Shown: positions 3,313 through 57,853 of the stretch, one piece after another
Position numbering within the stretch: position 1 is the stretch's first letter
Layout: the number at the start of each line of letters is the position of its first letter
NCBI RefSeq assembly: GCF_020520425.1
Contig: NC_079487.1
Location: 127,122,385 to 127,186,384 of the forward strand
Length of the DNA stretch: 64,000 nucleotides
Direction of reading: 5' to 3'
From: Spinacia oleracea
Taxonomy: Eukaryota > Streptophyta > Magnoliopsida > Caryophyllales > Amaranthaceae
Program-made: the position numbers and the translations under genes
Notes under the pieces: model-generated
Told to the model about the DNA's origin: nothing
Database searches by the model: none
Seen by the model: only the letters and a program-made list of their open reading frames with translations

Positions 3313-6300
3313 TCAACATATATCAACATCAATCTGAACCTTGCTCTTCAATGGCTTTCCTATTTGAAAATTTCCAAGTGGAGGGGCAATAGGAGCCATA
3401 AGTTCACCATATGAGTTCCAGCAGTAAGGATCATATAAGTGATACCGTTCTTGCAGTGGCTTTAGTTGTATGGTATTTAATGATATGTCTGTGCATGGTA
3501 GTTCATCACTGCATGCTAAATGTACAGGCTTTACGGTGTACGTGCCTTTAATATTTTGAAACGTGACACCTGATACAGCAACCGCCGTCGTTTGATTCTT
3601 GCATGTGCTTTTGTCGCAATAATATTGGTCTATTACTATTGGAAGCTGAACTTCATTAACTTGAATGTTTGAAAATGTCACACCTTTCACAGATCCTGAA
3701 CCACCCTGCAGAATAAAGCAGTCGGAGACATATTTAGCTATGCATATGGTGATGATGTTGCATAAGTAGAACCAGGCTTTAAATGCTATTCGGGTTTAGT
3801 TTATGAGTTAAATTTCTTCTCAGGTTCTGAGAAATCTGATTTTTTACTTTTCCTGTTTAAACTTTCGAGCCTTGTAGTTTGAGAGGCCCTGTTTGCTTTA
3901 CCTGATTTTTACTGATTAAAGCATTTAAAAGTATAAAACTGATTTTTTCTGATTAAAACTGGTTTTAATTTATTAAAGCTGATCTCTACTAATATTGATG
4001 AGAACAAGGCCTTAATGATTATAATAATACCAAATTATACTTTGTTATGTTGTCAACTGATTGCATTAATGTATGTGATTATTTTTAAATGCTATGTATA
4101 CCTGCCATGTCTTTATGCGGACTCCAGTCATCGTGCCATGCATGTTTACGTCTCTGACAGTGACATTTGAGACACATGCTTTACTGTTATACCTTCCCAG
4201 ACTCCCAATACTGATGCCATGTCCAGGTCCGCAATTTACACTGTGTATGTATACATTCGAGCATCCTGTTTGTATGGATATACAATCATCACCTGCATTC
4301 AGTTGTTCGCGTTAGATACTGCCACCATGGCGTGTGAATATGTGATCCTGTTTAATATTCAGTTTTTATGTAACTGGAATTAGTTTTCCTTGTTTGAGTT
4401 TATCTTGAACTTGTATTGCAATTGTTCATGGACTTTGGTTGTGGAGAAGGACCATTATAAGGTTCTGGCAGATGGCATCTTATTGTGGGTGGTCCTGTAT
4501 TCATTCGCATCCTATCCCTATGGATTTAGTGGTGACAATTATCTTTTGTTACTTGGTTGTAGGTGGTTGTAGCCCCAGAAGGCCAGAACATATTTTATCT
4601 GGAAGATGGCACTTGCTAGGTGACAATGGAAAAATAATGGTTGAACTCCATTGTCAGGATGATAATTTGGAGGTAACTCTTAGATTTAATCCCCTGTATC
4701 CCAGTGTTGTTGCTTTCTCAGTATCAAAATTTCTTTATATTTCGTAGGTATTATATTTCTTGATCAGATTCTGAATACTAATAGTAAATAGTGAATAGAT
4801 ACTTTTGATCCAGAAAAGTGTTTTTACCACAGGCAAGGCTGCTGGAGTGAATGAGCACATCTTTGGAATTTTGGAGGTGGATTCCATCAGTATTAGGACT
4901 GTCACCTGGTGATGATACAGTCACTGAATAAACCAAGACTCCATTACAATTGTCGAACTTGAGATGACATTGAGGACTGTTTTGAAGTGTTATTCCTGTG
5001 ACCGTCACGTTAATGCTTCCGTAAAACCTTAGTGCCTGTGCAACATGAGAGATCCCTTGTTAGGATAAATTGCTGATCCTGAAACAGAATTATTACCGTG
5101 TTTGTAATTTGGTGATTTTGGTAATTACCGTTGGCTTGACACTTGGCATTTTCCCGCTGAGCTCACTTCTCACCTATGACATGGTTGGCATATAGTTAGT
5201 TAGTGGACTGTAAACATGTTTTGGGTAGAAATCGGATGAGCAAAGATAATTACCGGCATTGGGGGCTTTTCTAAGATTGTGTCATTTAAGGGGATAATCA
5301 TTTCCAATTCATGATCTTCCGATTCATCGTATGGAGCGTCTGTCCACCAAACAGAGCCACTTCCATCAATGACGCCCTTCCCCTGTATGGTAATTCCTAC
5401 CAGTTTTGTGAAGTCCATCCACCACATCAGGTTAGATTTCCAAGCATTGGGACTTGTTGGAGCGACGATAGTCCCATCAAGCTAGAGCGTATGCATATTT
5501 AACAAGCCAGGTTAGAACAACTTCTACGGATAATTTACTCTTATAACATAAGTTGATTGTCTGATTTATAATGCTACTTATGTATTTATCAATTACTCAA
5601 CCGACACAACATGCAATCCCCTTCCCAACAAAATTAGAAAAACATGGGGCTGAAAAGGAATAGATTCAATGAAGTAAGAAAAATAGAAAACGTAATTGAG
5701 TGATTGGTGATTACCTGAAAAATAATGTTTCGCTGGCAGTAAGGACCAGAGAATGAAATGGGTCCCACAAGGAACTGATATCCTGATGGAATCAACATCG
5801 TTGATGACTCAACTTTACAAGCTGATGCCCATGCATCTTGGAATGCCTGCATTGCACCATAGTATATTTAGCGAAAATACATTTATTGTATCTGTCAAAA
5901 TACTTTTGCGCACAAACTTTATGGTTGGTTCTCATGTGGCAGTTTGTGCATTTGCGCATATAATTAAGGCTGAAATCTGGACCCTAACTGCCATAACTAG
6001 AAAATTTGTCACCGGTCCTAAACCTTATTAGCGTTGTCCTTTTTTACTTGGCCCCCCTCATGTAGAGGGACCAATTTATTTCACTGTTTTTGAAGGACAT
6101 GACTTTTTATTTTTATTTTTATTTTGCTCTAGATTTAATCAATTATCTCTAACTATCCTTTAAATTTTTCTTCTGTAACTTAATACGGAGTACTCCTCTG
6201 TAGGATTGTCCGTTGTCGTTCAGATCACGGGTTTATCAGCAACAGCCTTCTTTCAATTATGGAGGTAAACCTTAAAACAGACTATTTTCCTTTGTTTAGA

Positions 6301-8006
6301 TAAAGTTGTGTACGTCTGATCACCTTTACTCCAATTCTAGATATAAGGTTCGTTTGAGGTTTTGGGTTTATAGCCTAACTGATTACCTAGGTTAGAATAA
6401 TTTTGTTTTTCTAATAGGTTGTGTGAAATAATTAATACAAAAACTTATATGTGACGGTCTTATGTATAAGACCAATTTCTTACCAAATAGTTATACTTTA
6501 TGAATAAATATGAATAACTAGTTAAACACTAAAACATTGTGATTAAATATTTATGTTCAATAATTATAATGAATCAAATAGCTATACTTTCAAATTAAAT
6601 AGTTACATTGCGTCAGTGTATAATGATGACATCACCAGTCTTATGCATAAGACGATCTTATAGGAGACCTATTCAATACTTTTAGCGTGCTAAGATAAAC
6701 GCACCTAGTTTATCACCTCGATAAACTCTTGAAAGATGTCAAGATGTTGACTTTATATTCAACACCTATGACTGACAATGCATCAATTGTACTCCTTTTA
6801 TACAATTATATTTTATGCATTATTTAAAAAAAAAAAAAACAGAGACAATTTGTTTTGACTGTATATTTTATGTACATGCAATATGTTTGTATAACTTTTG
6901 TGTACGAATTTTCACTTGAATATACATCCTCATATTTGTTAAGGGGATAAACTTGGTGTTTCTCTTGCTACGATTTCTATATAATAAAAATATATTTGTA
7001 TTATTGAGTTTCTTTTGTTTATTTTATTATTCAAGATATCGTTTACCATTTTTACCTAATAAAATATACGGAGTACTTCAAATCACACTTTGTTTTACCT
7101 AAAATAAGCATCCATATGGTGCATAATGACATTTTGTGCTAATGTCAACGTTACTAGTGGTACTGTGGTACATACAATGATTAAATTAAACTGGAAAATG
7201 TTTAACAAAATAAAACTTTTTTTTTTTAACATTTTGAAGTAAGTGTTAAAATTTCATGGTATGAGCAGCTTTTAGGAAAACAGAGCAGACAGAGTATAAT
7301 GCTTGCTTAAGTACTGAAACTGAAGCCAGTTCAGTTCTTCAGGAGTCCCTAAGCACGACAATTCACCAGTCTGCATTATTCATAATTTTATATTTCTATA
7401 ATGTATTTTACTGACTTTCTTAAGAGTGTTTCAAAATAATAATTCACTTGATTATTGGAGTTTCTTGTGTTATCTTTCTCCAGTTAGTAGCTTAAATAAT
7501 AACAAAAATTTAGACCATCTTGTTATATTGAGTGGCTAATATCTAAAAAAGTGACTGAGGAACTATCATGTTCAAAATTTTACCTTAGTGTCATCACTAG
7601 TACCATCACCTTTTGCTCCATAATCAAGCACACTGAAAATGTTGGAACCCTTTGGTTCTGGTGATGGAACTTCCACTATTGGTGTAGGATTTGGTGGTGA
7701 CTTGGCTTTAGGAGGCGACCTTTTATAGTATGGAGCTTTCTGAATTGGTGGAGGCAATGGCGATGGCGTGTCCACATCTGGACTCGGCTTTGTTGGAGAA
7801 TGAGGTTTTGGCTTTGGTTTACTGCTGTGGTGGTGATTGTGGCTGTGATATCCATGACCTTTACTTTTCTTTTTTAGCAATGAGGCTGAAAGAGGTCTAC
7901 TATAATGCCTGCCTCTTCTAGCATTGCACGCATCAAAATTTGTAGACCAAAGGAGTATAACAATGAGAAGCATTAATGTGAGATTTTTGATGTCTAAATT
8001 ACTCAT
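3313..8006 (-). CDS. Polygalacturonase, GH28, PGX3-like (secreted, His/Pro-rich N-terminus)
   Basis: This secreted pectinase hydrolyses alpha-1,4-galacturonan in the cell wall. Seven exons (minus strand): 8006-7584, 5846-5715, 5481-5254, 5173-5129, 5035-4828, 4292-4102 and 3705-3313, about 539 aa. All introns are GT-AG. The start at 8006 is preferred over an in-frame Met at 8117: it gives a clean signal peptide ([20 protein letters not shown]) and leaves the CT-rich stretch as 5' UTR. After the signal comes a His- and Pro-rich region (about residues 30-125), then the GH28 domain from [12 protein letters not shown]. All four catalytic motifs are present: NTD (324-326), GDD (346-348), GHG (369-371) and RIK (404-406). 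The His/Pro extension and domain order resemble Arabidopsis At1g48100 (PGX3), which acts in cell expansion; that orthology is inferred. The exon 3/4 border is the least certain, since another acceptor lies 12 nt downstream in the same frame. Intron 6 carries a possible small MITE. Confidence 0.9.
3885..4011. mobile_element. Possible small MITE, PIF/Harbinger-like termini
   Basis: This lies inside intron 6 of the PGX3-like gene. The left end reads GGCCCTGTTTGCTTTACC and the right end is its partial inverted repeat (GAGAACAAGGCC). The interior repeats CTGATTTTT and CTGATTAAA units. No matching 3-bp target duplication is visible (left AGA, right TTA), so this rests only on the GGCC-TGTT termini, also seen in larger elements of this window. 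Confidence 0.4.
6184..7100. other. Large intron 1 of the PGX3-like gene, AT-rich, with two palindromes
   Basis: Intron 1 of the polygalacturonase spans 5847-7583. It contains two copies of the 9-mer TACGGAGTA (6184 and 7067) and two palindromes: GGTCTTATGTATAAGACC at 6456-6473 and GTCTTATGCATAAGAC at 6638-6653, about 170 bp apart. The palindromes could be the ends of a MITE, but no target duplication is clear. No other coding exon is apparent. Confidence 0.5.
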
Positions 8007-8170
8007 TTTTGTGGTTCTACTAGGACGAGCAAAGGGAAGGAGGAGGAAAAGAGAGAGAGAGAGAGAGATAGGGAGGCTGTATAGGAAGAGGGTTAGGAAG
8101 AAGAGAGAGACGCACACAGAGCAGGTGCTACTTCTGATAAGTGATAACTAAAAGTAGAGGTGGTTGTGGT

Positions 8171-27625: not shown

Positions 27626-28757
27626 GGTCCTGTTCTTTAGAGCTGAACTGAACTGAACTGAACTGAATGCTCCTGAACTGAACTGAACTGAACTGAACTG
27701 AATGCTCCTGAACTGAACTGAACTGAACTGAACTGAAATTTACTTAACAGAATATAATAAATAATAAATAATAAATAATAAATAATAAATAATAAATAAT
27801 AAATAATAAATAATAAATAATAAATAATAAATAATAAATAATAAATAATAAATAATAAATAATAAATAATAAATAATAAATAATAAATAATAAATAATAA
27901 ATAATAAATAATAAATAATAAATAATAAATAATAAATAATAAATAATAAAATAAATAATAAATAATAAATAATAAATAATAAATAGTAAATAGTAAATAG
28001 TAAATAGTAAATAGTAAATAGTAAATAGTAAATAATAAATAGTAAATAGTAAATAATAAATAATAAAATAAATAATAAATAATAAATAATAAATAATAAA
28101 TAGTAAATAGTAAATAGTAAATAGTAAATAGTAAATAGTAAATAGTAAATAGTAAATAGTAAATAGTAAATAGTAAATAGTAAATAGTAAATAATAAATA
28201 ATAAATAGTAAATAATAAATAATAAAATAAATAATAAATAATAATAATAATAAAAATAGTAAATAGTAAATAGTAAATAGTAAATAGTAAATAGTAAATA
28301 ATAAATAATACTAATTAATAAAAATAATAATAAATTATATTAATTATTAATAAATATTTAGTTATAAATAATAATAATAATAATAAGTAATATAATAATA
28401 TAAGTATAAATAATAAGTAATATAATAATATAATAATATAAATATAAATAATAAGTAATACAATAATATAAATAATAATATAATTAATAATAATAATAAT
28501 AATAATATAAATAATAATAATATATTATAATAATAATTATTATTATTAAAATAAATTAAATTAAATTAAATTGAATTAAACTGAATTAAACTGAACTGAA
28601 TTTAATGCTCCTGAACTGAACTGAACTGAACTGAACTGAATGCTCCTGAACTGAACTGAACTGAACTAACTGAACTGAATGCTCCTGAACTGAACTGAAC
28701 TGAACTGAACTGTCAAATAAGTCCTGAAGCTGAAATTAAGCCAAAAAGAACAGGACC
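27626..28757. mobile_element. PIF/Harbinger-type non-autonomous element filled with satellite
   Basis: Termini GGTCCTGTTCTTT are perfect 13-bp inverted repeats, flanked by TAA (27623-27625 and 28758-28760), the 3-bp PIF/Harbinger target duplication. Inside, GAACT pentamers in higher-order blocks separated by AATGCTCCT lie at both ends. Between them is a 7-bp (AATAAAT)n / (AGTAAAT)n array grading into irregular AT repeats. No transposase is encoded. 1132 bp. Confidence 0.85.
27749..28320. repeat. Heptamer microsatellite (AATAAAT)n with AGTAAAT blocks
   Basis: A nearly uninterrupted array with a 7-bp period, in which blocks of the AGTAAAT variant alternate with AATAAAT blocks. It is the core of the Harbinger-type element. 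Confidence 0.95.
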
Positions 28758-28760
28758 TAA

Positions 28761-29394
28761 GTAGTTTACAACTTTACACACACAAGTATCAAGTTGAAGG
28801 TCTCTTAACTTATCCGTTACAACTTACAATCCTAATATATAACCTAACTGTAATTTAATTAAGTGAACTTGTCTTTTATGATTGTTTTAAAATTCCCTTT
28901 CTATTATTATACACTAGTAGTACTTTGCCTCCTCTTTAAGCAAAGGCATCCGAATCCTACTTCACCCCCAATTCCTTTCGGTCATACGGACACTTTTAGC
29001 TCTTGTTAACTGAAATATAAAATCTGGCCTCAAGTCCCCGGATGTTTCACTATTCTCACAACAAACCCTTGATATACATACAGCTTTTGTGAATTTGTGC
29101 TACATAAGTTGAACTACGATTGAAGCGATAAATTTTCATTCTCACCAACAAATTCAATAACACAATCTTTCAATAATGCTTCAATAATAACAATCAATTA
29201 CAAATAAGATATTGCTATTGCATCATTACAATCCAAATCAGAAAAAGAAAATAGGAAAACTTAAAATTTTAGAAATGGAACTAACACCTTTCCCTAAAGT
29301 ATGTATTCTACATCATTTAAAATACCATTTGAGTTTAATAAACCCATTACTAAGCTGCTATATTAGTACCTATAATAATATGATGGAAGCAAAA
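28761..29394. other. 3' flank of the second polygalacturonase
   Basis: No ORF or repeat is supported. It probably holds the 3' UTR and polyadenylation region of the minus-strand polygalacturonase whose stop is at 29395. Confidence 0.5.
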
Positions 29395-32300
29395 TCACAG
29401 CTCTGTATGAACTATGTGATCTTCAATCGATTCCCCGAGTTGGGAAATTTTCATGTCATCAGGATTGGAATAATCTTTGTCATTGGAGGTAAGGCAATCA
29501 GCTGAGGGATTGATTGTTCCGAAACCAAAACCAGTAACAGAGTTACAGTATGTCTCTGCTGTGCCATCCTTCTTGTGCAAGTCAATATTAGAGAGAACAA
29601 TGTTCCTGCAAGGAACCGAGTCGCTGCAAGCAAACTTCATGGCTTCTTTGCTCTTTGTAGTTCCAGTAATATTCCGGTACATCACCTGACTAATTTGCAC
29701 AGCAGTCGACTGAAAAACCAAAAGGAAATCAAGAAAAGATTAGGCAACTTGATCATGTGATCATAAACTAGAAAAGGGGGAAAGTTAAAATATGGAAAGA
29801 AGAAAAACGAAAGAAAGACACATCATTACATAAATTCTTGCTTCCATTGAATGGATACCTTTTCGACCTTAATAAAATGAAGAAAAAAGAAGCAAAAACA
29901 CGCTTTCCCTTTTCAAAGGAAATGCTATAAAAAGGTCTATTTCAGCTGGAGTTTCCTTGCTTTCCTATATTAATCATTATCTAGGAGCTTAAATTAGTAA
30001 GCACATGGATTCTTGACCAAAGTGCTATTTTATTCAATCATCAGAGCAGAACTGCTGTAGTATTAGAGAGGGAAGGGTAACACTATATCAGTACAGCATT
30101 TGAGATTCTTTGCTTAACTAAGCTTGCTTTTTCTTAGGCATAACTTCCTTGCTTGTGAATTGAGTTTCAGATTTCTTGTACAGAAGCGATTCCTTAATAG
30201 CTTCTTTCAGGTGCAACAACGGAAAGTAAAAGGACCATGAAGATGGAGCTACAGATCACACTCTCCCATAATCTAACACAATATACCAAAGTATCAGCTA
30301 CACTAGTGGAAGAGTTGGTTTTCATTACCGGAGAAGCCAAACCAAAAACCTCGAAAAATATCCCAACCCCACTTACATCCAGTTGCTACACTTCCATTTC
30401 AGTGAAATCTATTGCAGTTAATAACTGTATAGTAAGAGAACAAAAAAAAAGAGAGGAAGTTCATCACAGATCCCCAATAGAAACTCATTGTATGACCACA
30501 AAAACCAATCCACTACTTCCTTTGTTCCAAAGAAAACTAATCTGACACCCAAAAAAACAGCTGCAACTCCCAAAAACATTCAACAACTATGATCCGCCTC
30601 AAGCAACGAGGAGGCACTGTCAGCCACGACAATGACTACAAGCTGAAAGATGCTAGCCCTCAGCTGGGAGAACGGTGGCCCAGTGGAGGAGGAGGCTATG
30701 GTGGACGAGCATGGATGAATAGTGGAGAGAAAAGTAGTACTTATGATCTTGTTGAGCAAACACACTATCTTTATGTTCGAGTGGTGAAAGCCAAAGATCT
30801 TCCCCACAGTGGTGTCACTGGAAGCTGTGATCCTTATGTAGAAGTCAAGCTAGGGAACTATAAAGGGCGGACCAAGCATTTCGAGAACAAAAGGAATCCG
30901 GAATGGAACCAGGTTTTCGCTTTCTCAAAGGAACGTATCCAAGCATCTGCATTGGAAATCTTTTTAAAGGAGAGAGAGACGGTAGGGAGGGATGATTACA
31001 TAGGAAGGGTGGTGTTTGACCTAAGTGAGGTCCCAACCAGGGTCCCACCTGATAGCCCGTTGGCACCTCAATGGTACAGGTTGGAGGATCGCCGAGGACA
31101 GGGGAAGGTAATGGGGGAGATCATGCTGGCTGTTTGGATGGGCACGCAAGCTGATGAAGCCTTTCCAGAGGCATGGCATACAGAAACAGCCTTTGTTCAA
31201 GGAGAGGGGCTATTTAGCATTCGATCTAAAGTTTACATGACCCCGAAATTGTGGTACCTAAGAGTGAATGTGATTGAAGCTCAGGATGTGATTCCAAATG
31301 ATAGGAGTAGAGCTCCAGAAATTCTTGTGAAAGTACAAGTTGGGAACCAAGTTTTGAGGAGTAAAATAAGTCCACCCAACAATATGAATCCGATTTGGAA
31401 TGAGGATTTGGTTTTTGTAGTTGCTGAACCCTTTGAAGAGCAGTTAGTCCTCACTGTTGAGGATCGTGTTCACCCAGCAAAAGATGATGTGCTAGGCAAG
31501 ATAATTCTACCAGTCAACATCTTTGAGAAACGGCTTGACCACAGGCCAGTTCTTTCTCGCTGGTTCAACCTAGAGAAATTTGGGTTTGGAGTCATGGAAG
31601 CTGATAGGAGGATGGAGCAGAAATTTTCCAGCAGAGTTCACCTTAGAGTCTGTCTTGAGGGTGGTTACCATGTATTGGATGAATCAACAATGTATGTCAG
31701 TGACACACGCCCAACAGCACGCCAACTTTGGAAGCCACCAGTAGGGATTTTGGAAATGGGTGTTTTAGGTGCTCAGGGTCTTCTTCCTATGAAGACAAAG
31801 GACGGTAGAGGCACGACAGATGCTTACTGTGTTGCAAAATATGGTCAGAAATGGGTTCGGACTAGAACGATTCTAGATTCCTTTGTTCCTAAATGGAATG
31901 AGCAATACACATGGGAAGTTTATGACCCATGTACAGTAATAACACTGGGAGTGTTTGACAATTGCCATTTGGGTGGATCTGAGAAGCAGGGTACTGCGGC
32001 TAGTTCAGCTAGAGATTCAAGAATAGGAAAGGTAAGAATTAGACTATCAACGCTCGAGTCTCACCGTGTTTATGCAAATTCCTATCCTCTCCTTGTTCTG
32101 CATCCAGGTGGGGTAAAGAAGATGGGAGAACTCCAGCTAGCAGTTAGATTCACCAGCCTCTCCCTAGCCAACATGATTTACATGTATGGCCATCCCTTGC
32201 TCCCTAAAATGCATTACCTCCACCCTTTCACAGTCAACCAAATAGATAGCCTTAGATTCCAAGCTATGAACATAGTGGCAGCAAGACTAGGCAGAGCTGA

Positions 32301-35300
32301 ACCACCATTGAGAAAGGAGGTGGTGGAATACATGTTAGATGTGGATTCACACCTGTGGAGTATGCGAAGAAGCAAAGCTAATTTCTTCAGAATCATGTCA
32401 ATTCTGTCAGGCACAATATCAATAAGCCGGTGGTTTGGTGATGTTTGCCATTGGAAAAATCCTATTACTTCAGTCTTAGTACACATTCTGTTCTTGATAT
32501 TGATATGGTACCCGGAATTGATACTACCAACAATGTGCCTCTACATGTTCTTTATTGGTCTATGGAACTATAGGTTCCGCCCACGCAACCCACCCCATAT
32601 GGATAACAAACTTTCATGGGCAGAAGCAGTACATCCAGATGAACTTGATGAAGAATTTGACACATTTCCTACTTCAAGGCCACATGAAATTGTTAGGATG
32701 AGGTATGATCGGCTTAGAAGTGTGGCTGGAAGAATTCAAACAGTGGTGGGTGACTTGGCGACTCAAGGGGAGAGATTCCAATCCTTGCTGAGCTGGCGGG
32801 ATCCAAGAGCGACAAGCTTATATATAATGTTCTCCCTTTCTGCAGCAGTGCTACTGTATGTGACTCCATTCAGAGTGATTGCTCTAGTAGCAGGGCTTTA
32901 CATGCTGAGGCATCCCAAGTTCAGAAGCAAGCTGCCTTCTGTTCCTAACAATTTTTTCAAGAGATTGCCTTCTCGAGCTGACAGCTTGCTTTAAGCAATA
33001 GAAGCTAGTCTATTGGATATATAATGCGCCTTCAATTTCAATTTGTATTTCAATTTCGGTTATTCCAATTAGGATCTTATCAAAGATCCATATGTTTCCA
33101 AGATATAAGTATGATTCACTTCTTTTATTTATATGAAAGTGTATTTTTTGTTTAACAAGAGAGACAGAACCTTTACCCTATTTTTGAAAATGAAATGTAG
33201 GATTATCAAGTATTTTATATTTGGACAAGATACTAGAGAATTTTGTCTTCTACTTCGTATATGGAAAACACATGAGGGCTGAGGCCGGTTTACTCAAACA
33301 GGAAACATATAAAATCTCTAATGCAATAGCAACGAAAAGAATGGACACCAAGAAGTTACCTGGTTTCCGCAAGCATTTGGTGAGTCACAATAGAATTGAT
33401 CTATAATTATAGGATTTGCAACGTCTTCCATCATCACATTTTCAAAGCGTACTGCTTTGACATAGCCAGATCCTCCCTACATTAATTAGTTAAATAGGAG
33501 ACGATATTCAAGGTCTAATGACTGAAACTTAAAGAAAGATTCAAAAGGTAGTTTCAGAAAAGGTACCAGAGCATATATGAATAGGTCCAAAACTCCAAAG
33601 TAAATTCAAATTTTAGAACAAGGGTTTACGATTGGAATAAGGGAGAAAATAGGAATGTATCATGTCATATTGTCATACAAGCAGCAATATCATATTGTCA
33701 CTTGAAGACATTAAGTCAGTTCTTTGAAATACATTGTTTTCTTCTTAATTGTCTGGTTCATTATTCTTCTGTTCTCAAAATTACCAGAAGGAATGGCACA
33801 TCAAGATTTGACCTTTTTCCTATTTAAGATATTCTCTTTTCATATTTTGTAAAGTATATCTGTATTTCATAATATCATGATTACCTGCCAAGTCTTAATC
33901 CTGAGTCCATTACTTGCACCCCTTATAAATGCTCCACTCAGGACAACTTTTGTGACAATGCCAGTTGAGTTATCCTTACCAAGGCTTCCTATGCTGTAGT
34001 AGCAAAATCAGTTAGTGAAAAAACAGAATAGCCAAGATTTTAAGGAATTATGTCACCAAGGTTGTGATAAACTTGTTAGAACTTAGAACATCTAATCGTT
34101 CAAGGAAATACCTAATTCCATGCCCAGGACCACAATAAATTTTCTTCATCTTGATACTTGAACTGGCATTGACGATTGAAACACAATCATCCCCTAGTGA
34201 ACACGTGTCAACACAAATAATAGCTAGTTAGCATACTTAGATCAAGTAATGTTTTATGGGGCATATATATATAACATAGTGCACTGTGCACACTTATTTC
34301 CAGGTGGCACTTGGACAAGCTAGCATGTGAAAGTTTTTCAGAAGAACAACATTTAAGAAACTACTCCGTACTTCAAGTCTTCAATTACAGTATAAATCCC
34401 TTATCACCCCAAGTATTCATTTATAGCAGGTTTAAAAAATAATAGCAGCAACATCTATGAACAGAGGAGGCACAGAGAAGTTCAAGGTTAATAATACCTG
34501 TTCCAATTTTACAGTCAAGAAGAGCAACATTTGTTGATCCAGTGATATGTATCCCATCAGTGTTAGGACTGTCTTCTGGTGACGAAACTAGCACATTGGA
34601 CACTCGCACAGAATCACAGTGGGAAATAACAAAATGCATCTGTTGGCTGTTCTGGATAGTCAAACCCTTGACCCTTATCGAAGAGCTTGATTCTATTGTT
34701 AGTGCCTTCAGCAAAAAAAAATACAACGAATCGTTGTTAGATGCAACCTATAGATTCCAATAATTACATTATGTGTATAACTTGTTTAAAAAAAACTACA
34801 AGAACAGCAACTCCCACCCCATTTCCATTTTTACAATTTTACTAAAGTGAATCATATCTAGATTCTTCCAGATTCACATTTTTTGTAGAATCTACCCGCA
34901 ATCCAAAATAAATAAATAAACAAAATAAAAAGTTCCAACAGAAGGGATACGTACTGTAGGTGCTCCTTTACATGGCTGTAAGATCAAGGAAATTTGAGAA
35001 AACAAAAATTTAGATCAGTACATAACACAATCAATTCTATCAGTCAGTAGAAAAGAATTCAGAGGACGACAAAGAGTTACATTGGTCTTGTTCTTTTTGC
35101 AGGATGCAGCCCACCATTTACTGCCTGACCCATCAATGACCCCTTTTCCTTGGAAAAGGACACTTGTCAAGTTGTGAAAATTCAACCAGCTCCGGGAAAA
35201 TTTTGGATCCCAGTCATTCGGTTCTCCTGGTGCAACTACTGTACCATCAATCTGCACTCCAAGCAAACAAAAGCAGCGAATAAATAATTTTCACAACTAG

Positions 35301-35812
35301 AATGGAGAACAGACATATTGACATTTCTGGATAAAAACTTACCTGAACAACTAATCTACCAGCACAGGGTCCTTCAAATCTTGTTGCATTAACAAGATAA
35401 CGACGTCCTTCAGGAACTAATAGGACAGATTTTTGCATAGAACAAGCCTGCTTCCATGCACTTAAGAAAGCCTGAAAAAAGTTCATAGAAAAATAAGAGT
35501 AAAGCAAGTGTTAGCTTGAACATGTAGGTATAAAGATCATCAAATCAATGAATCTCCAAGCCACTTGATAATAACCTGGGTATCATCAGAAGTTCCATCT
35601 CCAGCAGCACCAAAGCTATCGACATTCACAAGAACATGCGCAGAATTAGTACTGGTCCATGAAGGCATTTCAAAATCTTCTACTTCATCTTCTTCATAAG
35701 TGTCAAAGCTTTCAAGTTCTCCAAGCATAGCAATCTTGTCATGTACACCATATTCTGCAATCCCATGAACTGTGATCAATAAGCTAAGGAAAAGAACAAA
35801 AAATATTTCCAT
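29395..35812 (-). CDS. Polygalacturonase, GH28 (At1g80170-like), hosting a nested gene
   Basis: A secreted pectinase of about 462 aa in nine exons (minus strand): 35812-35576, 35471-35343, 35251-35081, 34975-34955, 34705-34498, 34193-34112, 33993-33885, 33476-33360 and 29709-29395. Every intron is GT-AG and phases agree. A signal peptide (MEIFFVLFLSLLITVHG) is followed by an acidic stretch (DTYEEDEVEDFE) and the GH28 domain ([15 protein letters not shown]). Catalytic motifs are intact: NTD (234-236), GDD (256-258), GHG (279-281) and RIK (314-316). Exon 4 is a 21-nt micro-exon encoding PCKGAPT. Exon 5 is 208 nt, the same as its counterpart in the PGX3-like gene, showing common descent. Intron 8 (33359-29710, about 3.65 kb) contains the whole FTIP1-like gene on the other strand. 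The family assignment to At1g80170-like enzymes is from memory. Confidence 0.88.
30589..32994 (+). CDS. FTIP1: MCTP / FT-interacting protein (FTIP1-like)
   Basis: Intronless, 801 aa, multiple C2 domain and transmembrane region protein. In plants this family sits at ER-plasma-membrane contacts and plasmodesmata; FTIP1 moves the florigen FT into sieve elements. Domains: a family N-terminus (DYKLKDASPQLGERWP), C2 near 58-165 (DPYVEVKLGNYKG), C2 near 220-335 (LWYLRVNVIEAQDV), C2 near 378-500 (GILEMGVLGAQGL), then the C-terminal MCTP/PRT_C region with hydrophobic segments near 625-660 and 743-775 and a conserved end (RHPKFRSKLPSVPNNFFKRL). Length matches FTIP1/MCTP1 (about 790-800 aa) rather than longer QUIRKY-type members. 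It lies entirely inside intron 8 of the opposite-strand polygalacturonase. Subfamily placement is from memory and could instead be a close MCTP paralogue. Confidence 0.92.
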   Translation: MIRLKQRGGTVSHDNDYKLKDASPQLGERWPSGGGGYGGRAWMNSGEKSSTYDLVEQTHYLYVRVVKAKDLPHSGVTGSCDPYVEVKLGNYKGRTKHFENKRNPEWNQVFAFSKERIQASALEIFLKERETVGRDDYIGRVVFDLSEVPTRVPPDSPLAPQWYRLEDRRGQGKVMGEIMLAVWMGTQADEAFPEAWHTETAFVQGEGLFSIRSKVYMTPKLWYLRVNVIEAQDVIPNDRSRAPEILVKVQVGNQVLRSKISPPNNMNPIWNEDLVFVVAEPFEEQLVLTVEDRVHPAKDDVLGKIILPVNIFEKRLDHRPVLSRWFNLEKFGFGVMEADRRMEQKFSSRVHLRVCLEGGYHVLDESTMYVSDTRPTARQLWKPPVGILEMGVLGAQGLLPMKTKDGRGTTDAYCVAKYGQKWVRTRTILDSFVPKWNEQYTWEVYDPCTVITLGVFDNCHLGGSEKQGTAASSARDSRIGKVRIRLSTLESHRVYANSYPLLVLHPGGVKKMGELQLAVRFTSLSLANMIYMYGHPLLPKMHYLHPFTVNQIDSLRFQAMNIVAARLGRAEPPLRKEVVEYMLDVDSHLWSMRRSKANFFRIMSILSGTISISRWFGDVCHWKNPITSVLVHILFLILIWYPELILPTMCLYMFFIGLWNYRFRPRNPPHMDNKLSWAEAVHPDELDEEFDTFPTSRPHEIVRMRYDRLRSVAGRIQTVVGDLATQGERFQSLLSWRDPRATSLYIMFSLSAAVLLYVTPFRVIALVAGLYMLRHPKFRSKLPSVPNNFFKRLPSRADSLL

Positions 35813-36699
35813 AATTTTTGAGTTTGTGTGATTAGAAAATTATAGTAGGATAATTTATGAACAGACACTGAGTTTGCATTTATATGCATAGATTAGCACT
35901 CAAAATGAAGAGATTTGTGGAAATCAATCTGGCTTGACTTGAAAGTAGATGAAGTGCCAACACTTTCTCCATGCCTACACTTCAAGTTTAAGTGAAATTT
36001 CTTTTACATATCTTTGCTTTACTCTTAAACCAATAAACTGTAGTTTCACCAGTCAAAAAAGTTTATGAGATTCTCCACTAGCACTGGATATATATATGTA
36101 CTCCTTCTTTATGTCCCTACATAATAGGTAACTTTTCTATTTTAGGCCGTCCAAGTATAGGCCATTTCCAGAATTTGGGAAGTTGATTTTCAAACTTTCC
36201 CAAATTGCCCATAATATTACCATTAACTAAGATTCCAAAGATAGCCTGCATTGGTATTGTGACACTGTAAATCTATGAAAAAGTGAAGGATGATTACGGT
36301 ACTTTTAACTCAGAACCTTAAAAATGACCCCAAATCAAGCATGACCTATTACTTAGGGGTGAAGGGAGTTATACTTTTTGACATTATCAGGCAATCCAAT
36401 ACCCAGCAATTGTAAAAATGTGAGTGATGCTAAAGGATCATACACTAGAAAACCAGAAATGGATAAATCTATAGGTCTAAGTTAAGGTCAACCATTTAAG
36501 TAATTCATACTCTTCCAAACTGGAACAACTTCTGGGGTGCTACTTTCCTGAGTCCCGAGTTCTGAAGCCAAAAAAAAACTTTCTATTTTGAGATGGATAG
36601 TTGGTCCAGGCTCATCAAAACTCTAAAAACCCAGGTACTATTCTATAAAAATGCTGCAATTTGATGGACTTTCACGGCTTTCTGTGACATTACCACAAT
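35813..36699. other. Upstream region of the second polygalacturonase with a Stowaway-like element
   Basis: This 890-bp gap between two minus-strand genes must contain the promoter of the polygalacturonase and the 3' end of the PPR gene. A Stowaway-like element (36101-36368) occupies its middle. I see no other gene. Confidence 0.5.
36101..36368. mobile_element. Stowaway-type MITE
   Basis: The left terminus CTCCTTCTTTATGTCCCTAC plus ATAATAGG pairs with the right CCTATTACTTAGGGGTGAAG plus GGAG. TA precedes the left end; the right flank is TT, a probable mutation of TA. 268 bp. Confidence 0.7.
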
Positions 36700-38691
36700 T
36701 CAAACGATAAAGCTGTGACCAATCTCCCTGCCTGATTGCCTTGCTATCCAGATGTCTCTGTAATGCATGGACAATTCAGAATCTCCAACTTCAAGATAAA
36801 AGTTTGAGACTTGCAGGCACACTCCAGAATTTCCTGGTTCAAGCTCCACCAACCGTTTTGCAACTCTTTGTCCAACAACAACATTCTTGTGTATCCTACA
36901 ACTTCTCAGTAATGAGCTCCACATTAAAGAACTGTCCCTTATAAGTGACAGCTTTAACAATTCTTCAGCTTCACATACCAACCCTGCACGGCCTAAGAGA
37001 TCAACCATGCATGAATAATGCCTCGGATCTGGTTCAATACCATGGAGTGATTTCATGGACTCAAAAACCCTTCTTCCTTCCTCTACTAAACCTGAATGGT
37101 TGCACCCTGTCAAGACACACAAGAACGTCACTCTATCTGGTTTTAAACCCTTTTGGAACATCACTTCGAGCAATTTCAGGCACTCTTTTCCTAATCCATT
37201 ACAGGCATAACCATTTACAATTGATGTGAAGGAGACAACATTGGGTGAACATAGACCCTCAAAAACACCGCGTGAATGATCAACCTGTCCCAATTTGGAA
37301 TATGTATCAATTAGTGAACAAGAGACCACGTTATGAGATTCGAATCCAATTTTAATAGCAAGAGAATGAAGCAATGTGCAACTTGATAAACTCATATAGG
37401 AAGATCCCGACAATGCTTTCAGTGTGGTGGACAAGGAGAATTCATCAAATCTAATTCCCTCATAACCCATGAATTTAAACAACTCAACCACCTCTTCAGC
37501 ATAACTACAATGTAACATAGATGTCAAAAGAGCATTGCAGCACTCCATAGTTTTACAAGTGCACTCCTCATATATATTAAACGAACTCTCAATCTCGTAA
37601 CATTTCCCATACATATCAATTAGAGCAGACTGAACATGGATGCTTCCGCAATCAAAACCCAGTTTCAGAACAAAACAATGCAACTGTGTTCCCAAAAAAA
37701 GATTCTCACTTTTGCTGCACGAATTCAAGAGCGCAACAAATGAACGCACAGATGGTTTCATACTCCAATAGTGCATCCTCACAAAATGTTCAAGTGCATC
37801 AGACAACACCCCACTATTAGCATATGCAGAAACTATCGAATTCCATGAAATCACGGCATCATAAGGAATAATTTCAAACGATTTGCTAGCGTCACTCAAA
37901 GTCCCGCAAGCAGAGTAAAAATCCACCAACGCATTAGCAACAAACCGATCCGATTCAACCAACCCAGCCTTGAGAGCTAAGCAGTGCAACTGTTCTCCTT
38001 GAATCACAAAGTTCCCATTACAACAACCCTGAAGCAAATAACAAACCATAAGACCATTCAACATAACCCCATCAAATTTAACTCTAGGAAAACACCTTAT
38101 AATCTCATCCCACATACCCAATTTACAAAATCCTCGAAAAACCAAATTCCAAACAGCAACATTCCTCTCTGGCATTTCATTCAAAACTTTCAACCCATCA
38201 TCAACAAACCCCATTTGCACATAAAGATCAACGATAGAACTCCCAATGTACAAGTTCCCACAAAACCCAAGTGAAATCACTCTACTATGTACTTGAATCC
38301 CCTCAAAATAAAACCCATTGTTACTACAAATGCTCATAACACAAGAAAACGTTGATGGGCTTTCTGCAAAACCTTGAGATAACATTTCAGAATACAATTC
38401 AAACGCTTTCCCTGGTAATCCATAGCGTTTGTACCCAGAAATTAGCAAATTCCAAGAAACAACATCCCGAACAGACATTTCGTCGAACAGTTGGTGGGCA
38501 TAGTCTAAAGACCCTGATTTGATGTGATCATCTATTGCACGATTGTTAGAAAAGATTAGATCAGATGTGTCAGTCTTGTAGCAGGAATCAAGATGCAAGC
38601 GCCGGAAAAACGCACAGATTTTCCGTTTATTTGAGAGTTTTAATAAGCTCCCAATATTCTGGGGATTTGATAGTTGTTTTATAAATTGCAT
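36700..38691 (-). CDS. Pentatricopeptide repeat protein, PLS class, E subgroup
   Basis: Intronless, 663 aa, as usual for plant PPR genes. These proteins bind organellar RNA sequence-specifically, usually for C-to-U editing. The body is a run of P, L and S repeats; clear helical pairs include DVVSWNLLISGYKRYGLPGK, NVAVWNLVFRGFCKLGMWDE and NVVSFTSIVNGYACNGLGKE. The C-terminus has an E-type region (MWSSLLRSCRIHKN... LVELEPGN) and stops without a DYW domain, so any editing would need a DYW partner in trans. The N-terminus (about 40 residues, rich in K, R, S and L) could be a mitochondrial or plastid transit peptide. I cannot name the orthologue. The long plus-strand open frames in this span are shadows. 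Confidence 0.93.
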   Translation of the reverse strand: MQFIKQLSNPQNIGSLLKLSNKRKICAFFRRLHLDSCYKTDTSDLIFSNNRAIDDHIKSGSLDYAHQLFDEMSVRDVVSWNLLISGYKRYGLPGKAFELYSEMLSQGFAESPSTFSCVMSICSNNGFYFEGIQVHSRVISLGFCGNLYIGSSIVDLYVQMGFVDDGLKVLNEMPERNVAVWNLVFRGFCKLGMWDEIIRCFPRVKFDGVMLNGLMVCYLLQGCCNGNFVIQGEQLHCLALKAGLVESDRFVANALVDFYSACGTLSDASKSFEIIPYDAVISWNSIVSAYANSGVLSDALEHFVRMHYWSMKPSVRSFVALLNSCSKSENLFLGTQLHCFVLKLGFDCGSIHVQSALIDMYGKCYEIESSFNIYEECTCKTMECCNALLTSMLHCSYAEEVVELFKFMGYEGIRFDEFSLSTTLKALSGSSYMSLSSCTLLHSLAIKIGFESHNVVSCSLIDTYSKLGQVDHSRGVFEGLCSPNVVSFTSIVNGYACNGLGKECLKLLEVMFQKGLKPDRVTFLCVLTGCNHSGLVEEGRRVFESMKSLHGIEPDPRHYSCMVDLLGRAGLVCEAEELLKLSLIRDSSLMWSSLLRSCRIHKNVVVGQRVAKRLVELEPGNSGVCLQVSNFYLEVGDSELSMHYRDIWIARQSGREIGHSFIV

Positions 38692-53494: not shown

Positions 53495-56400
53495 ATGGAC
53501 CCTCAAAGTATCCGGCCAGACAAAGGGAAACAGATCATGATAATAGTGAGTTTGTTTAAAATCTGATTAATGATTCAAAATGATGTTAATTGAAACCTGA
53601 ACAGAGAAACAAAAATATGATTAGCACTAGTACGTACGAAATGTACGAGATCCATAGTTGATCATTTGTTCTATTTTCGATATGTTGTCGGCAGGAGGAT
53701 CAAGATAGTAGCTGGCCAGACAAAGGGAAACAGATCATGATTACAGTGAGTTCATTATTTATAATCTGAACAGAGAAAAAAGGATATGATTAGCACGAGT
53801 TAGTATGAATGCACGATATCCATGGTTGATGTTTTGTTCTATTTTCAATTTGTTGTCTGCAGAAGGATTCAGAAGTTCATTCTCCAGTAAGTTATGAGGA
53901 GGACTGGGACACTGATGATGAGCTAGAAATGCAGTTTTTTCAGGCTTTTGATGATCAAGTGAGTAGTAATTTTGAACCTTAAATGATACTTTGTTGCATT
54001 TTAGGCTTGACTTGATGTGTTAAGTTAGCATTAAACATATTACAATAAGCAAGACGATATAGGTCTTAACAATAACGAGGGGTTAGGAAAAGCCTAGTTC
54101 ATTTGACTTCAAATGCATGGCTTCTAGCGTTCTTTGCTAAATAATTTGGGCTAGTCTTAGGAGATAAAGTGAGTCTACTTTTATCCCCATTGATTTTTTG
54201 GCTTGAATCCGCACAGAAAGACTGCAAAAGCAGATAAAGTGAGTCTAACTGCGAAGGCAGATTTTTCATCGACCCTCCCAAACAAGAGGGAGGTGAATGA
54301 TTGTAACCTTGACTTGATGTGTTAGGGCAAAAGCAATAGAAGAAACTCCAATGAAGTTTGTTCTCATGCCATATCATTGTTTTATAAACCTTGATGGTAA
54401 TGAACCTTTTACCAACGATAGATAAACCTATACAAAGGTTCATATGTAGAACCATTACATTCATCTCATTTGAAACAAAATATATTAAAAAATTTGAAAA
54501 TTAATATGTTATGCATATATGGCAAAGACAAACCACTTACTCTTTAGTAACCTTTGGTTTTGTAACTTTTCCTAACAATAGTGAGGTTTGTCTACAAACC
54601 TCTAAAATACAATACAAACCTCTTGACAAACCTCTTATTGATATTGCCTTCATTTTAATGCTAATATGTTGTTTCAACACTCTCTTATACTTCTATGACC
54701 ATGGGTTCGTATTTCATTTACTTGTGAGTGGCTAGTATACATAATAAGTTAATAACTCAAAGTGAGTAAGAAGCATTTTAGCACAAACTGGTTCTGTCAT
54801 TCTTGGCATATTAGCAATATACATTGCAGATTACAATTCTAATTGATTTTGTTTGGAAAAATGTTACTAACTAATGTATTTATTTTCCTACAATACAAAG
54901 GGCGTGGCTTATGAGCATGATTCTCCTGTTGACTGCTTTGATCATGCTTCATCAACTGGTTCTTCCAGTTACAACCCCAACAAAGTCGACCACTTTATGT
55001 CAATGGGTTTTTCGGAGAAGATGGTGGTTCAAGCCATAAAAGAAAACGGTGAGGACAATGATGAAGCAATACTCAACAGTCTTCTAACATACTCGGTAAG
55101 TTTTTCTTTTTTAAGTTTTTGGTAAGAAAGAAAGCTTATTATTACCCAGCCAACCAGAATTACACCTAAAAGGAAAGAAAGTTGAGGACAAACACCACTT
55201 AACTAACCTTGAGAAGCTAAGAAACACCACAAATTACAAAGGAAACAAAAGCAAAACAACACAGGTCTTCACAAGGACTGGAACAAAAATACATCAGTCT
55301 GCCTAACTTTCTTCTGCATAAGTGCTTGAATACGCTGCTTCACATTACATTTGATGTCTTGTACTATCTTCTACACAGTAGATATTTTCCATTCCATACG
55401 GCGTTATTTCTCTTCATTCATACTCTGTAAACTGTTGCCATAACAGCAACCACAACCATCTGTTTTCTGAACTTTGAGCAATGGAGCCTCCTGTATGCCC
55501 AACCCAAAAGTTTTGGAAGTTCAACAGTCACAACCTGAATACCCAGCTACTCTTTAATTATCTTGATGCATTTCTAACTGTATGGTACTCTAAGAAAAGG
55601 AGTTTATGAATTTCAACCTGCTGATCACAAATGAGGCATTGATCAGAGTCACACACGGCAAATTTCTGCAACTTCTGCCTTGTCTGTAGTCTCTCATGCA
55701 TGGCTAACCAGGTTATGAACATATGCTAAGGGAAATTTAAGTGATTCCAGACCAGCTTACACCAGTAAAATAACTACTTGATCAAGATAATAGGATGCTT
55801 GGTCATATAATATCCATTGACCTGGTTATAAAATTCTTAAATGCAGGTTCTTGAAAACTCTCCTGGAGAAGATATCAGTTCTTCTTCCAAGTCAAAGTCA
55901 CCCGTTGATATAAATGAGGACTTTTTAGATGGATTTTCGGACAGTGATAGTGATTGTGGAGATGCAGAGGTATGTCATTGTACAGTTGTCTGGATTGTTT
56001 GCCTTTTGATTTAAAGATGGAAGTCAAGTAATTGGTTCTATCTTGTAGGGAAGTGGAAGAAATTCTGATGACCCCAAAGAAAAAACCATAGCATTAATGG
56101 TTGATATGGGTTACAACCTCGAGGATGTTCTAATTTCTTTACAGAGATGTGGTTAGTAGACTAAACTATTAAACTTGTTTTTGCCTACTTGATTAACATG
56201 TGCATGGTTTCTGTCTCTAATTAGAGTTATATAATTAACATTCAGGTCATGATGCGTCTGTTGAAGAGTTAGCTGATTACATATCTGCTGCTGAAGTGGC
56301 GAAAGTTGCTGATGCAACAGAATTCCCAGACCGTATTCGGACTGTTCAGAGGTTTCAGGCAGAGAAGAAGAGAAAAATTCCTCAGCTGAGTAGTCAAAAG

Positions 56401-57853
56401 CCGAAAAAGAGACCAGAAAAGCCGTTGGTGCGAAAATTCTCAAAACAGATGGTTGGGTTTGGGCTTCCAGGGTGCCCTCCTGTTGTATCTCATAGGTATC
56501 TACCCGATGAAGCTGTAGGTCCTCCGTATTTTTATTATGAGAACGTGGCTCTTACTCCTGTCGGGGTTTGGGAACACATCTCCCGTTTCCTGTACGACAT
56601 ACAGCCAGAATTTGTGGATTCCATCCACTTTTCAGCAGCTGCAAGGAAAAGAGGCTACATTCACAACCTCCCTATCATGAACCGGAAGCCTTTACTTCCC
56701 ATTCCACCAAAGACGATTCATGAAGCAATACCTGATACAGCAACCTGGTGGCCTTCATGGGATACAAGAACAAAGCTAAATTGCCTTTTAACTTGCATTG
56801 GAAGTGCCCAGTTGACTGAAAGAATTAGAAATAAGGTTAAGTCTGGTCATCCTTCTGATGATGACATTAAGTTTGTTATCGAGCAATGCAAGAAGTGGAA
56901 CCTAGTGTGGGTTGGGAAAAATAGGGTTGCCGTCCTTGAACCAGAAGATATGGAGATGCTACTTGGGTTCCCTAAATGTTACACAAGAGGTGTTAGCCGT
57001 ACTGATAGATACAAAGCCTTGGGCAACTCCTTTCAGGTCAGCATATTATTTATCAACTCTTCAATGTTATCAGTAATCTTCATTTTGGCCTATATTGAAT
57101 TAAGTTTAGCTCTCGTCTTTAACAATTCCACGGTATTAACTATTAAGATGCTGCATCAGACCTGTTCTTTACTTCTGTGGTATTCAGAGTGCATTCTCAT
57201 TTTTCTAACTCTTTGAAACGTTATCAGAAATCATACATTACACACAAACTGCTCTGCTAACTGTAGGTGAACTTAAGAGTATGATTAAATGAAGATATCA
57301 TACTTCCTAGAGAAATTCTGTATCATCTTCCTTGTAAATCTGCTCAACTACATATTACCCTGTATTACTATATTAATGTTTCAAGTTCATGTTTCAGATC
57401 GACACTGTTGCCTACCATCTTTCAGTCCTGAAGCCAATGTATCCAAACGGCATGAATGTTCTTTCTCTCTTCTCTGGAATTGGTGGAGCAGAAATTGCCC
57501 TTCACAAACTAGGGATCCCCTTGAACAATGTTGTGTCAGTAGAGATTTCCTCTGTGAACCGAAAAATAGTCAATCAATGGTGGGAAGAAACAGAGCAAAA
57601 GGGCAGGCTGATCCACGTTGCTGATGTTCGAAAGATCAATAACTCAACAATAGATGGGTGGATCGACGAGCTCAATGGATTTGATCTGGTGATTGGTGGA
57701 AGCCCTTGCAATAACTTGGCTGGTGGCAACAGGAGGACCAGGGATGGACTCGAGGGAGAACATTCCTGTCTCTTCTACGAGTACTATCGAATCCTAGACT
57801 ATGTCAGGACGGCCATGAAAAGGAGAGCAGCAGCATCGTGCAGGTTCGATTGA
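53495..57853 (+). CDS. DRM2: Domains rearranged DNA methyltransferase (DRM2-like)
   Basis: De novo cytosine methyltransferase of RNA-directed DNA methylation, nuclear. Eight coding exons: 53495-53545, 53695-53745, 53863-53958, 54901-55095, 55847-55969, 56049-56151, 56246-57036 and 57398-57853; 621 aa (Arabidopsis DRM2 is 626). Two UBA-type segments are clear (about 93-131, KVDHFMSMGFSEKMV, and about 182-222, IALMVDMGYNLEDV). A basic linker precedes the rearranged catalytic domain: motifs IX/X (TDRYKALGNSFQ, near 465) come before motif I (LFSGIGGAE, near 494-502) and motif IV, IGGSPCNNL with catalytic Cys574. Exons 1 and 2 are near-duplicates (RPDKGKQIMII and WPDKGKQIMIT). Intron 4 contains an antisense LINE fragment and intron 3 a possible MITE. 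DRM1 versus DRM2 cannot be separated here. Confidence 0.94.
54325..54648. mobile_element. Possible MITE in DRM intron 3
   Basis: The left end GGCAAAAGCAATAGAAGAAA and, inverted, the right end GGCAATATCAATAAGAGGTT are similar. The interior repeats CCTTTACCAA / AACCTCT motifs. No target duplication is evident, so confidence is low. Confidence 0.35.
55118..55830 (-). mobile_element. 5'-truncated LINE fragment in DRM intron 4
   Basis: On the minus strand, 55780-55570 encodes, with stops, an RVT zinc-binding region: FITWLAMHERLQTRQKLQKF followed by CDSDQCLICDQQVE, the C-x-x-C pattern typical of plant L1-like LINEs. The 3' end with a T-rich (plus strand) tail lies near 55110-55125. Target duplication not resolved. 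Confidence 0.7.

Follow-up and report, generated by a model that had tools for sequence, protein, structure and literature searches.

A complete MCTP/FTIP-type gene lying antisense in the last intron of a predicted polygalacturonase gene of spinach

A 64,000-nucleotide stretch of the Spinacia oleracea genome (contig NC_079487.1, positions 127,122,385 to 127,186,384; referred to here as the window) carries on its minus strand a GH28 gene of polygalacturonase type and, on the opposite strand within the last intron of that gene, an intronless gene of the MCTP/FTIP type. The exon model of the host was derived for the minus strand from homology anchors, reading frame and splice sites, and gave a complete gene of nine exons (1389 nt including the stop codon; 462 amino acids, with zero internal stops) in which all eight introns have GT-AG borders (Table 1). 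The motifs NTD, DD, GHG and RIK, taken here to be the names of the GH28 catalytic motifs, are all readable by eye in the joined protein. The joined product matches Pfam PF00295 over residues 91-417 (311.8 bits, cut-off 22.9; E 6.5e-93), and residues 60-414 align to the best solved relative, ADPG2 (7b8b_A), with an E-value of 7.3e-106. The host gene looks to encode an intact GH28 enzyme, predicted to be of polygalacturonase type.

A preliminary description of this locus had proposed that exon 8, ending at 33360, continues in phase into exon 9, starting at 29709, and this was borne out: the two join in phase 0, GH28 and ADPG2 homology runs through the join (after residue 358) without a gap, and the nearest gap to ADPG2 is of one residue, at residue 352. 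The alternative named there, of two separate partial loci, was rejected, given the single nearby exon set and its in-phase join, with the other GH28 matches in the window (tblastn, E 1e-3) coming only from 3382-5849. Because that region holds a separate gene, exon 9 does not represent the end of a different GH28 copy close by. This second GH28 gene (3382-5849, same strand as the host; five tblastn pieces, 39-53% identical) lacks an intron at the site of host intron 8. By eye, an open reading frame (ORF) at 7572-8117 on the minus strand, for which no Pfam match was found, may be its first exon.

The coding sequence of the nested gene lies wholly inside host intron 8, occupying 2406 of its 3650 nt (66%). 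As had been described earlier, the gene is intact and intronless, with complete domains: PF00168 (C2) occurs in three stretches and PF08372 (PRT_C) is matched over positions 1-156 of 156. The product is, by prediction, a probable cell-to-cell transport protein.

Table 1. Coordinates of the host GH28 gene, the nested MCTP gene and its intronic flanks in the window, with related GH28 loci elsewhere in the genome
Feature	Coordinates	Strand	Remarks
Nested intronless MCTP/FTIP-type gene	30589..32994	+	801 aa, open frame without stop
MCTP 5' flank, intronic	29710..30588	+	879 nt; presumed promoter and 5'UTR
MCTP 3' flank, intronic	32995..33359	+	365 nt; presumed 3'UTR
GH28 exon 1	35576..35812	-	start codon at 35812
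GH28 exon 2	35343..35471	-	
GH28 exon 3	35081..35251	-	
GH28 exon 4	34955..34975	-	21 nt
GH28 exon 5	34498..34705	-	
GH28 exon 6	34112..34193	-	
GH28 exon 7	33885..33993	-	
GH28 exon 8	33360..33476	-	homologous exon present in L049
GH28 intron 8	29710..33359	-	3650 nt, GT-AG, phase 0
GH28 exon 9	29395..29709	-	104 codons and stop codon
GH28 loci with a match split between exons 8 and 9	C4:170.07 Mb, C4:172.40, C3:34.90, C3:19.54, C3:19.36, C3:19.53		
GH28-like fragments	C1:76351522-76351728; C6:63605565-63605660; C6:97393236-97393583; C4:21665014-21665354; C3:8459683-8459880; C4:171340690-171340827		

Intron 8 is far longer than introns 1-7 of the host, which measure 91-408 nt, and its end signals are strong. 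The donor, CAG/GTAACT, agrees with the consensus CAG/GTAAGT at eight of nine positions and ranks second among the eight introns of the gene; the acceptor, TTTTGGTTTTTCAG/TCG, has pyrimidines at 15 of the 18 positions before AG, the highest of the eight, and no internal donor scoring at least 8/9 was found within the intron. Both intron ends are rich in AT: GC content is 0.356 in the 879-nt end and 0.31 in the 365-nt end, against 0.453 in the MCTP coding part, and U on the host strand is 0.38 and 0.35 at the two ends. A genome search with the 5' flank returned one match, the flank itself. A TATA-like motif at 29926 in this flank is within chance expectation, and a promoter scan gave two sites against 2.2 expected by chance, the scan modeling bacterial sites. 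The 64-kb window contained no tRNA and nothing matching an Rfam family at the gathering score, and no tandem array was found in 29300-36000.

The age of intron 8 was approached through GH28 paralogs in a whole-genome search with the joined protein (99 matches listed; 216 candidates, 92 of them scored; counts are lower bounds). Among the matches listed, six other GH28 loci are split at the exon 8/9 point, with 57-338 nt between the pieces. One of the six, L049 (C4:170072890-170073610), was read in sequence, the other five being known from their split matches. Its exon 8 ends ENQ/GTATTA and its exon 9 starts TTGCAG/ACA (TSAV), in phase 0, so that a 344-nt intron stands at the same site and in the same phase as host intron 8. 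This homologous intron in a paralog suggests that intron 8 is older than the nesting. The old intron itself has left little in the host, since comparison of the two introns gave nothing beyond one 20-nt match (E 0.033) and two 11-nt matches (E 0.43). Elsewhere in the genome, scattered fragments resembling the host gene were noticed (Table 1). They comprise a single exon or exons 1-2, show 64-88% identity, in some cases contain stops, and may be carried by mobile elements.

The MCTP family was surveyed by a genome search for PRT_C, which gave 13 matches, 12 near full length and one a fragment. At 11 of the 12 MCTP loci, the nested one included, the gene is a single-exon ORF of 775-1087 amino acids. 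The remaining locus, L034 (C4:1178500-1183500), is the only one with a frame break, at 477 amino acids; its match picks up again about 370 bases later, across either an intron or a lesion. In a tree of the other 11 loci, L032, which lies on C3, came out as the sister of the nested protein (support 1.000). Amino acid identity to this nearest paralog is 72%, with pN 0.16 and a saturated pS of 0.79. Unique changes in the nested protein and in L032 numbered 51 and 74 with a first outgroup (chi2 4.2), 57 and 62 with a second (chi2 0.2, not significant), and 43 and 76 with a third (chi2 9.2). Judged from these comparisons, the nested MCTP is an old gene, constrained at least as much as its sister, and no recent retrocopy. 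The nesting is particular to this gene within the reach covered around its paralogs, no GH28 match having been found at E 0.01 in 27 loci (L022-L048) that extend 5 kb or more to each side of the 11 MCTP paralogs.

Together, these findings make it probable that the arrangement arose by DNA-level nesting of an old, already intronless MCTP gene, with its own promoter, in an older spliced intron of the GH28 gene, with neutral consequences. Intron 8 would already have existed when the MCTP gene, intronless by then, was placed in it at the DNA level. The MCTP would be driven by a promoter of its own in the 879-nt intronic flank, and the GH28 precursor would be spliced across the 3650 nt through the strong end signals. 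The earlier proposal of a gene-copy insertion is in part retained, since entry into an older intron is probable given the 344-nt paralog intron; the intronless retrocopy that it implied is not indicated. Both genes keep sequence hallmarks of function, and the layout is thus evidently tolerated and most likely neutral.

Several observations weigh against neutral nesting in an older, spliced intron. At least 16 other matches of the whole-genome search, the second GH28 gene of the window among them, run unsplit through the exon 8/9 point, reaching residue 403 or beyond, so that intron 8 is found in only part of the GH28 family and its age can be judged only from the loci that have it. The part of the intron antisense to the MCTP has a U content of 0.288, which is exon-like (host exons 0.287; introns 1-7 0.396), and such a composition could weaken the splicing of intron 8. 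Read on the host strand, the intron contains AATAAA three times, once inside the MCTP coding part. Transcription and splicing of both genes are, moreover, predictions from sequence. A first competing explanation is that exon 9 goes unused, with polyadenylation within intron 8 or its retention yielding a protein that lacks the last 104 residues. The great length of this last intron and the AATAAA motifs would fit such an outcome, as would the short tail added by retention, whose open frame stops shortly past 33321. Against this, the frame of exon 9 is intact, its product is homologous to GH28 and its acceptor is strong; its disuse is considered unlikely.

A second explanation gives the layout a function. 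In this proposal, GH28 transcription through intron 8 represses the MCTP, by polymerase collision, by chromatin marking or by small interfering RNA (siRNA) formed when the host precursor pairs with MCTP mRNA, which if true would link remodeling of the wall to plasmodesmal transport. The MCTP is indeed fully overlapped by the antisense host unit, and there is a plant precedent in sorghum, where ARG1 lies in an intron of antisense CARG and regulation was reported, with higher ARG1 expression in genotypes that lack the carrier transcript and carry a MITE insertion as well (PMC9048912). However, the ARG1 and CARG transcripts, as described in that report, share 158-159 complementary nt, whereas the MCTP coding region is absent from the GH28 exons and from the mature host coding mRNA. 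Because of this, pairing in cis would be confined to the precursor or to untranslated regions (UTRs). To evaluate antisense adaptation, poly(A)-like and splice-like hexamers were counted on the host-read strand of the MCTP coding sequence and in 200 synonymous shuffles of it, with the same comparison made for ten MCTP paralogs, L034 being left out. Observed and expected counts were 6 and 6.3 for poly(A)-like hexamers, 1 and 0.3 for AATAAA, 3 and 2.2 for donors, and 4 and 2.8 for acceptors; the five motif classes had z-scores of -0.1, 1.3, -1.8, 0.5 and 0.7, with those of the paralogs scattered from -2.4 to 3.0. Relative to the shuffles, the antisense strand of the nested MCTP shows no avoidance of hexamers of either type. 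Since this strand shows no motif depletion and the gene evolves no faster than its paralog, repressive coupling is regarded as quite unlikely. Interference or double-stranded RNA between the two genes, as suggested in the preliminary description, is possible; because the MCTP coding sequence lies clear of the GH28 exons, any interference would be limited to polymerase collision or to nuclear pairing with unspliced GH28 precursor. A stronger form, in which the nesting is conserved across related plants as a switch, with GH28 expression transcribing the MCTP backwards and lowering it, appears highly improbable. If true, it would mean that gene layout alone makes wall loosening and plasmodesmal transport, perhaps that of the flowering signal, oppose one another.

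A third explanation, insertion into intron 8 of an MCTP copy reverse-transcribed from mRNA, would account for the intronless state of the nested gene. That state is, however, no evidence of retrocopying, because single-exon genes are the habit of the family, at 11 of 12 loci in spinach, as noted above, and for 15 of 18 MCTPs reported in maize (PMC9347167), in keeping with the earlier remark that many plant MCTPs are intronless. Nor is there a close parent: a genome search with the first 1001 bases of the nested gene returned, besides the gene itself, eight weaker matches, the strongest of them 70% identical, and the most similar protein, at 72%, is single-exon too, while L034, the only locus with a broken frame, is less similar to the nested copy. 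No poly(A) tract is seen by eye after 32994 and there is no clear flanking duplication, although age could have erased such marks. A recent retrocopy was rejected on these grounds, and retrocopy insertion is considered very unlikely. Carriage of the MCTP by a transposon found no support in a search covering the 5' flank, which is single-copy, and only weak, short repeats are present. An assembly misjoin bringing two loci together is extremely unlikely, as nothing was found in its favor, the window contains zero N bases, exons 8 and 9 are correctly ordered and oriented, and neither the first 1001 MCTP bases nor the whole GH28 protein nor the 5' flank has a near-identical counterpart elsewhere in the assembly.

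Other features of the window were noted in passing. An intronless gene for a 663-residue PPR protein (36700-38691) lies upstream of the host GH28 gene on the same strand (minus), and long AT-rich simple repeats (28000-28720; AGTAAAT-like, then CTGAA-like) are found about 0.7 kb past the GH28 stop codon. Two plus-strand ORFs at 56296-57853 resemble parts of a gene for a cytosine-5 DNA methyltransferase, with PF00145 in the second and no Pfam match in the first; they are presumably DRM-like.

In the available literature, as represented by titles and abstract openings in part of the matching set, no nested GH28/MCTP pair was found. The significance of the locus is twofold. A coding gene nested in a coding gene of a plant offers a natural test of how much antisense transcription through a gene matters. 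The nesting is also a trap for annotation, in which the host may be split or may lose its last exon.

Viewed singly, each gene resembles well-described relatives. The host is homologous to the GH28 polygalacturonase ADPG2 (PDB 7b8b) over residues 60-414, and its own distinguishing feature is the 3650-nt last intron. The nested protein has the three C2 domains and one PRT_C domain reported for FTIP1 (PMC3328448). Since a second member of the same clade, L032, sits on C3, the name FTIP1 would be a guess at the level of the clade. As a pair, they constitute an ordinary kind of gene nesting. The intronic nested pairs described in animals (PMC8467205, PMC3488318) similarly have an intronless internal gene, on the opposite strand, within a multi-exon host, and opposite strands are reported as the commoner orientation there (220 of 296 simple nested pairs in human, 193 of 248 in mouse; PMC8467205), which is also the orientation here; the spinach pair differs in being from a plant and in the share of the intron filled by the internal coding sequence. 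The sorghum ARG1/CARG locus is closer in that a plant protein-coding gene lies wholly inside an intron of an antisense unit. CARG is, however, described as likely non-coding, with a transcript that overlaps ARG1 itself (PMC9048912), whereas the spinach host appears to encode an intact enzyme whose exons are free of nested coding overlap.

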